Shown here: positions 56,311 through 57,131 of the stretch, piece by piece | Position numbering within the stretch: position 1 is the first letter of the stretch | Layout: every line of letters begins with the position of its first letter | Origin: an uncultured Pelagibacteraceae bacterium | GTDB lineage: Bacteria; Pseudomonadota; Alphaproteobacteria; Pelagibacterales; Pelagibacteraceae | Length of the DNA stretch: 64,000 nt | Assembly (NCBI GenBank): GCA_902582155.1 | Contig: CACHRI010000002.1 | Span: 62,001-126,000 of the forward strand | Direction of reading: 5' to 3' | The notes under the pieces: model-generated | Database searches by the model: none | Told to the model about the DNA's origin: nothing | What the model saw: only the letters and a program-made list of their open reading frames with translations | Made by a program: the position numbers and the translations under genes

Positions 56311-56754
56311 ATGAAAGCACAAAATCTAAAATTAATTGCAAAAAATGATGAAGATTTGAAAGTTATATCTGCACATCTTCAAGATTCCATTGTAAAAACA
56401 AGTGATATCGCAAATTTAAAAAAAAATAGAATTTTATTAATGCAAATAAATCGTTTTATGTGGGAAGATGTTGAAAAGGGAGTGTTTAGAAAAAACAAAC
56501 GCATTAGAACTGTGCTTAAATTTGAAAATTTAATTAAAGTAGTCTCAAAAAATATAAATCAAAAAAAAGGTGATAGATTTTTAGACTTTTTAGCTATTGA
56601 AACAAGGAAAATGCCTGATAAAAACTACGAAATGAATTTAATATTTGCTGGAGATGTTATTATAAAACTTGTAGTTGAAGCTATAGAGGTAACCTTAGAT
56701 GACCAAGGATCTCCGTGGGAAAGTAAAACAAAGCCAAAACATGAGAGTTTATAA
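56311..56754 (+). CDS. DUF2948 family protein
   Basis: 147 residues. Matches the alphaproteobacterial DUF2948 pattern: LKLIAKNDEDLKVISAHLQD near the start, ILLMQINRFMWED, and the C-terminal LDDQGSPWESKTKPKHE. Function unknown. In this lineage it lies between murA and hisD. Its TAA overlaps by one base the ATG of the hisD relic, the arrangement expected for an intact hisD. Confidence 0.88.
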   Translation: MKAQNLKLIAKNDEDLKVISAHLQDSIVKTSDIANLKKNRILLMQINRFMWEDVEKGVFRKNKRIRTVLKFENLIKVVSKNINQKKGDRFLDFLAIETRKMPDKNYEMNLIFAGDVIIKLVVEAIEVTLDDQGSPWESKTKPKHESL

Positions 56755-56915
56755 TGTTAAAAATTTTTAATGGAAATCAAAAAAAATTATAAGTTATTTA
56801 TCTAATGTCTAAAAGAGGTATTGAAAGATTGGGACCATCGGTTATAAATTTAGCTAAGCATGAGAATTTAGAAGGTCATGCACTTTCAGTAAAATTAAGA
56901 TTGGAGGAAAATTAA
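56754..56915 (+). pseudogene. hisD: Internally deleted hisD relic (histidinol dehydrogenase)
   Basis: Reading from ATG at 56754 (TAATG with DUF2948) gives MLKIFNGNQKKL, then TAA at 56790; the same frame continues to TAA at 56913-56915. The last about 36 codons read RGIERLGPSVINLAKHENLE followed by GHALSVKLRLEEN, matching the C-terminal tail of HisD (LGP..LA..E.L..HA.SV..RL). HisD is normally about 430 residues, so more than 370 codons are missing between a plausible N-terminus and the true C-terminus. The C-terminal codons carry the infA ribosome site, which may explain their survival. Location between DUF2948 and infA is the standard hisD site. The N-terminal match is inference. Confidence 0.65.
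56903..56907 (+). promoter_or_regulatory. Shine-Dalgarno site of infA inside the hisD relic
   Basis: GGAGG, eight bases before the TTG start of infA, lies within the last codons of the hisD remnant (reading LEEN). It fixes TTG 56916 as the infA start. Confidence 0.7.
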
Positions 56916-57131
56916 TTGGCTAAGCAAGAAACTTTGGAGTTCAAAGGCAAAGTAACAGAGTTGTTACCTAACGCCATGTTCAGGGTAAAACTTGAAAATA
57001 ATCATGAAATTCTTGCTCACACTGCTGGAAAGTTAAGAAAGAATAGAATAAGAGTTTTAGCTGGAGATAACGTGATGGTTGAAATGACACCATACGATTT
57101 AACTAAAGGTAGAATAACTTTTAGATTTTAG
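56916..57131 (+). CDS. infA: Translation initiation factor IF-1
   Basis: 71 residues, S1/OB fold. Starts at TTG 56916 ([20 protein letters not shown]) after GGAGG and ends [14 protein letters not shown], as in other IF-1 proteins. Blocks the A site of the 30S subunit with IF-3. The stop TAG uses as its last base G57131, which is also nucleotide 1 of tRNA-Phe, so RNase P cleavage of a joint transcript would remove the final base of the stop codon. Confidence 0.96.

Follow-up and report, generated by a model that had tools for sequence, protein, structure and literature searches.

L-Histidinol dehydrogenase (HisD; PF00815, TIGR00069) and HpsN, the dihydroxypropanesulfonate (DHPS) dehydrogenase also called DHPS-3-dehydrogenase or sulfopropanediol 3-dehydrogenase, have the same fold. 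In the available text of PMC11382572, DHPS dehydrogenases are marked by a GRY(A/S)H motif and HisD by a GSAPL-like motif, and the HpsN of Cupriavidus has no detectable activity on histidinol. The available text of PMC11131964 gives a 691-fold preference for DHPS in a Roseobacter HpsN and describes a promiscuous HpsN from SAR11 strain HTCC1002 that acts to a comparable degree on R-DHPS and on L-histidinol (kcat/Km of 1.7e-3 and 7.5e-4 per mM per s, respectively); E. coli HisD is listed in the same table with a kcat/Km of 0.004 on histidinol. Neither hisD loss nor the existence of two HpsN alleles is mentioned in that available text, and among the titles and abstract openings of the open-access literature we found none that deals with the loss of hisD, or with alleles of HpsN, in SAR11. 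It is well known that the side activity of a homologue can permit the loss of the dedicated gene; such events are described as paralogous gene displacement or as a promiscuous enzyme filling a pathway gap, and we propose one here for a locus found in a 64,000-nucleotide stretch of Pelagibacteraceae DNA (the window).

A hisD remnant between DUF2948 and infA

At the orthologous place of hisD, with the same neighbours as in 83 intact loci of the genus, the window has 162 bases (56754-56915) with an internal TAA, which cannot encode a HisD enzyme (Table 1). The DUF2948 gene ends in a TAA at 56752-56754 whose final A opens the ATG of the remnant (56754-56756; TAATG), and the head codons MLKIFNGNQKKL (56754-56789), which resemble the HisD starts of intact relatives, are followed by the TAA at 56790-56792. 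Past this stop the same frame is open for 40 codons, VIYLMSKRGIERLGPSVINLAKHENLEGHALSVKLRLEEN, among them an ATG at 56805, until it is closed by a TAA (56913-56915) that abuts the infA TTG at 56916.

Table 1. Features at the hisD locus, in window positions
Feature	Position	Strand	Evidence
DUF2948 gene, upstream of the deletion	56311..56754	+	ORF list; PF11164 match 3.4e-42
hisD 5' end, 12 codons MLKIFNGNQKKL and TAA	56754..56792	+	sequence, frame translations, starts of intact relatives
Junction stretch, ~380 hisD codons missing	56793..56810	+	sequence; 1289-1306 base interval of intact relatives
hisD 3' end, ~34 codons and TAA, same frame as the 5' end	56811..56915	+	PF00815, identity to relatives
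GGAGG, probable infA ribosome-binding site, within the hisD tail	56903..56907	+	sequence; site census in relatives
infA, whose TTG start directly follows the hisD stop	56916..57131	+	ORF list; tblastn of InfA in relatives

The tail is the C-terminus of HisD. It matches PF00815 over profile positions 371-411 of 411 with 20.1 bits (E 1.8e-4 for the whole genome), a score that falls short of the 27-bit cut-off of the family and was obtained with one TAA inside the matched stretch, and clear homology begins near 56811, covering ~34 codons. Over a 31-residue core, the median identity to intact relatives is 84% (best 28/31; 73 of the 81 intact loci with a parseable tail), and the identity among intact sequences is also 84%; the tail is thus undecayed, and either the deletion is young or the tail is constrained. 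In total, ~46 of some 432 HisD codons are kept, with a stop between the two ends. We conclude that 56754-56915 is a hisD pseudogene, the scar of an internal deletion. This confirms the initial annotation, made from the sequence of the window, which had proposed an internal deletion leaving both ends of hisD in frame: the profile match, the alignment of the tail with HisD of SAR11 relatives, the starts of these relatives and the full hisD at 83/130 of their loci all agree with it.

Spread of the deletion within the genus

A search for DUF2948 gave matches in 137 of the 169 genomes of the genus, and 130 of these loci were fetched; those left out either have a true HisD (G216, G221, G228, G258 and G267) or only a partial DUF2948 (G282 and G283). 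InfA is 92-100% identical in 126 of the 130 (tblastn), and the length of the DUF2948-infA interval is two-peaked, with 44 loci at 24-161 bases and 81 at 1289-1306 bases. The remaining cases are G183, with an interval of 1736 bases in which another DUF2948 stop is met, and four loci without infA, among which G159 was counted as hisD-bearing for the 534-bit HisD beside its DUF2948. By this census hisD is missing at 44 loci, present at 83 and undecidable at 3, and the genome of the window has the longest remnant among the same-genus hisD-less loci. Searched for a true full-length HisD at other places, which scores 520-548 bits in relatives, the 44 hisD-less genomes gave none. The presence or absence of hisD changes 7 times on the 129-locus tree built from MurA, DUF2948 and InfA.

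Since 44/130 loci have an interval of 24-161 bases, as against 83 with a full hisD, the deletion is widespread and is not a fault of assembly. The genome of the window is admittedly a draft (17 contigs, 88% complete), in which a full hisD might have been collapsed or misbinned at this place; however, the gap is of varied length among the 44 loci, and it recurs in a second collection of 80 named loci, where 16 of the 72 measurable ones are short (24-139 bases) and 56 are full. Records in this collection are mostly named "uncultured Pelagibacteraceae bacterium isolate AG-..." or SAG-MED, with some titled "MAG:", and we take the AG- isolate names to denote single-cell genomes; many of the gap loci thereby come from separate isolates of the single-cell type. 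Assembly collapse as a general explanation is rejected on these counts, and a fault confined to the window is exceedingly improbable.

Retention of the infA ribosome-binding site

A site of the AGGA/GGAG/GAGG type lies at most 20 nt upstream of infA at 38/44 hisD-less and 66/81 intact loci, and in the window it is the GGAGG within the preserved hisD tail, as had been pointed out initially. The accompanying suggestion that selection kept only what infA needs fits part of the data, namely the 38 loci with a site and the several hisD-less lineages in which the hisD tail is gone and only the ribosome-binding site is left. It fits less well with a group of 11 genomes with remnants of 103-104 bases, which keep the tail more strictly than the site alone requires: over the final 66 nt their pairwise identity has a median of 95% (55 pairs, with one genome out of register), whereas at same-amino-acid sites 75% of codons are identical in infA and 73% in DUF2948. 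At 25/44 hisD-less and 68/81 intact loci, the ORF that opens at the DUF2948 stop reaches to within 12 nt of infA, but in the window it comprises 12 codons and stops 123 nt before infA.

This strict conservation may reflect either constraint or local recombination. It is what would be expected if the remnant were a working short gene whose tail peptide or RNA acts beyond the ribosome-binding site of infA, but the reduction of other hisD-less lineages to 24-29 bases speaks against such a role, and recent local recombination could likewise have homogenised the tails; we regard a working short gene as very unlikely. The 11 genomes correspond to L039, L041, L044, L047, L049, L056, L060, L084, L094, L098 and L111, most of which encode a 34-codon ORF running from the DUF2948 stop to infA.

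The histidine pathway without hisD

In the genome of the window, hisB, hisH, hisA, hisF and hisE form one run on contig C12 and hisG is on contig C9, all above the NCBIfam cut-offs; a HisZ-like protein that scores under its cut-off adjoins hisG. The pathway genes considered were hisG, B, H, A, F and E. By hand count, HisB and HisG each occur in 38/44 hisD-less genomes, and HisA is found in 30/30 chosen genomes, 18 of them hisD-less, with that of G220 cut by a contig end. The HisG match contains an internal stop in one hisD-less genome (G253), as it does in the hisD-bearing G231 and G243.

Median dN/dS values for hisB, hisH, hisA and hisF are 0.029, 0.054, 0.064 and 0.052 in hisD-less pairs and 0.026, 0.052, 0.063 and 0.044 in hisD-bearing ones; the pairs share at least 78% identity, and some hisB rows begin upstream of the likely start. 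The hisG/B/H/A/F/E genes are kept, and purifying selection on hisB/H/A/F is the same whether hisD is there or not; judged from these genes, the histidine pathway looks intact and would still run in hisD-less cells.

These results are at odds with the dependence on histidine that the initial annotation had drawn from the loss of hisD, and as the plain reading of the remnant it is rejected, the his genes being intact and under selection. Cells that need external histidine, with the other his genes as leftovers, would explain why a true hisD is absent from the locus and not found elsewhere in all 44 hisD-less genomes. Yet in a streamlined genome such leftovers would decay, whereas here HisB and HisG persist in most of these genomes, hisB/H/A/F have dN/dS values as low as in hisD-bearing genomes, and the recurrent loss always occurs with one particular form of HpsN where HpsN is found (see below). 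An external requirement for histidine is accordingly quite improbable.

An intact HisD-fold protein is closer to HpsN

The dependence had been qualified with the possibility of a hisD elsewhere, and the only full-length HisD homologue elsewhere in the genome is one that we identify below as HpsN, a likely substitute rather than a second copy. This PF00815 protein on contig C5 (L180 6629-7942; 445 bits) passes the hisD model TIGR00069 with 427.8 bits against a cut-off of 243.8. Its nearest solved structures, however, are DHPS dehydrogenases (520 bits to Cupriavidus HpsN, 8v35) and not HisD (248 bits); in the alignment it has the GRYAH and SEHLEV motifs and the catalytic Glu-His, and the HisD-type GSAPL-like motif is absent. 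The gene stands in a TRAP-transporter operon with the order DctP-DctQ-DctM-HpsN-Zn-dehydrogenase. Taken as an ordinary second hisD, the protein is rejected on its 520-bit match to DHPS dehydrogenase versus 248 bits to HisD and on its GRYAH motif; by sequence it is closer to HpsN, the DHPS dehydrogenase of HisD fold, with which it shares the match, the motif and, in this genome, the TRAP neighbours. Acceptance of HpsN by TIGR00069 means that automatic annotation hides the loss of hisD, and a stricter reader would wrongly call histidine dependence.

A sulfoacetaldehyde acetyltransferase gene (Xsc; L180 14893-16674; 1034 bits, cut-off 620) lies some kb from the hps operon, which makes other sulfonate use likely. 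A neighbouring PF04295 protein was considered as SuyB and rejected, scoring 155 bits as galactarate dehydratase, under the cut-off of 731.

HpsN alleles are paired with hisD status

Across the genus, HpsN occurs in the same operon as two alleles, which we call A and B. Allele A is 94.9-100% identical to the HpsN of this genome (85.7% in G202), and allele B is 70.8-74.8% identical to it where full length. All 31 typed hisD-less genomes have A and all 29 typed hisD-bearing genomes have B, with zero discordant cases (G160, G271 and G277 being typed from fragments of 109-180 residues). A further 8 A and 9 B genomes of the genus are unplaced, the hisD locus being not assembled or not found, and no true HisD was found in the 8 with A. 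HpsN itself is seen in 31/44 hisD-less and 29/83 hisD-bearing genomes (Fisher p 1.7e-4, with relatedness ignored).

The MurA-DUF2948-InfA tree is linked to the hisD locus. Pruned to the 60 typed genomes, it has 6 changes of hisD status matched by 6 of HpsN type, with 60/60 tips concordant and 6 independent contrasting pairs. G220 (without hisD, A) and G222 (hisD, B) form a sister pair with support of 1.0, as do G271 (hisD, B) and G098 (without hisD, A) with 0.978; the placement of G165 (hisD, B) beside the hisD-less G264 has a support of just 0.68. A separate tree of hisB/H/A/F (30 chosen genomes, 25 typed) shows three changes of hisD status and three of HpsN type. HpsN type changes once on the tree of HpsN itself, 5 times on that of DctM, 8 times on that of DctQ and 3 times on that of the Zn-dehydrogenase (Zn-ADH), from which we conclude that recombination separates HpsN from its operon neighbours, whereas its type keeps in step with a locus elsewhere. 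The distance between hisD locus and HpsN is ~310 kb in the single-contig genome G026. Over 57 columns that separate A from B, no plain lean of the A-specific residues toward HisD was seen, about equal numbers favouring B by eye.

The pairing might instead follow from common ancestry or from a linked ecology, such as that of a lineage living on DHPS, with an unrelated dehydrogenase having taken over the step. Most concordant tips do fall in a few clades, and neither HpsN nor an hps-type DctM was found in 13/44 hisD-less genomes; several HisB-bearing genomes of another genus, g3, likewise show no HpsN. The 13 absences could stem from incompleteness, as completeness alone predicts 33.6/44 HpsN-positive genomes, or ~10 misses (P(<=31) 0.21), but HisB and HisG were each recovered in 38 of these genomes, against 31 for HpsN. 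Against an unrelated enzyme, hisD-less genomes gave no full-length homologue of HisD other than HpsN, and the pairing survives 6 switches at unlinked loci while the operon neighbours break away. We therefore hold a takeover by an unrelated dehydrogenase to be unlikely.

A possible route to hisD loss

We consider it likely that the last step of histidine synthesis is performed by HpsN allele A, encoded on C5 in this genome, and that hisD was redundant and deleted, the action of allele A on histidinol being a prediction. In the order of events that we envisage, allele A would oxidise histidinol well enough in the cell, a true hisD would become redundant in a cell with allele A and be deleted, and the leftover between DUF2948 and infA would be worn down to the infA ribosome-binding site and, in many cases, a short coupled leader ORF. 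Cells with allele B would keep hisD, presumably because this allele acts too weakly on histidinol in vivo. HpsN of HTCC1002, the enzyme assayed in the available text of PMC11131964, is probably of the B type and from a hisD-bearing strain, judging from G026. Its histidinol activity would mean that the B-type enzyme already has the side activity; A may be the version of the enzyme that suffices. Allele A in hisD-less genomes would then differ from the described HpsN enzymes in probably also serving histidine synthesis. Against this role stand the lack of histidinol activity in the Cupriavidus HpsN, the DHPS-dehydrogenase motif GRYAH kept by the C5 enzyme, the A/B columns that do not bring A plainly nearer to HisD, the 13 hisD-less genomes in which HpsN was not seen, the g3 genomes with HisB but without a HisD-family match and, possibly, G097 (see below).

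On a broader reading, to which we give about an even chance, a large share of SAR11 would run histidine synthesis on a bifunctional HpsN allele A, selection would couple A with the absence of hisD and B with its presence across unlinked loci despite recombination, and the enzyme in the genera g3 and g13 would perhaps now be a dedicated histidinol dehydrogenase. The case differs from paralogous gene displacement as described above in that two unlinked loci repeatedly switch together in a recombining population. If the proposal holds, some of the commonest ocean bacteria owe an essential biosynthetic step to the catabolic enzyme of an abundant algal sulfonate, and these genomes would provide a natural, repeated test of how promiscuity allows genes to be lost from streamlined genomes, as well as a natural test of selection binding two unlinked loci.

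Other genera

Seven genomes of other genera were checked at both loci, and each has hisD with a B-type HpsN (G014, G017, G026, G043, G051, G083 and G109). G097 may be an exception to the A/B pairing: this genome (L425; 97% complete) has HpsN of the B type, and a search of it gave no true HisD. We also picked 20 genomes of the genera g3, g6, g8 and g13 for showing no true HisD. DUF2948 is found in 9 of them, with intervals to infA of 49-55 bases in six g3 genomes, 76 bases in one of g8 and 152-153 bases in two of g6, and HisB is found in 13/20. Four of the HisB-bearing g3 genomes (G025, G068, G073 and G096) have no HisD-family match. Among L409-L411 (g6 and g8, 76-153 bases), the g6 intervals contain traces resembling the hisD tail.

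The twelve HpsN proteins fetched from these genera are A-like, with 80.8-85.7% identity to allele A. TRAP genes, which adjoin HpsN in one g6 locus, are absent beside it in the two g3 loci and the one g13 locus that were read, a further difference from the described HpsN setting. In the g13 locus (L259 2492-3778) the HpsN gene is solitary, and in the two g3 loci (L249 and L253) it lies beside a Zn-dehydrogenase.
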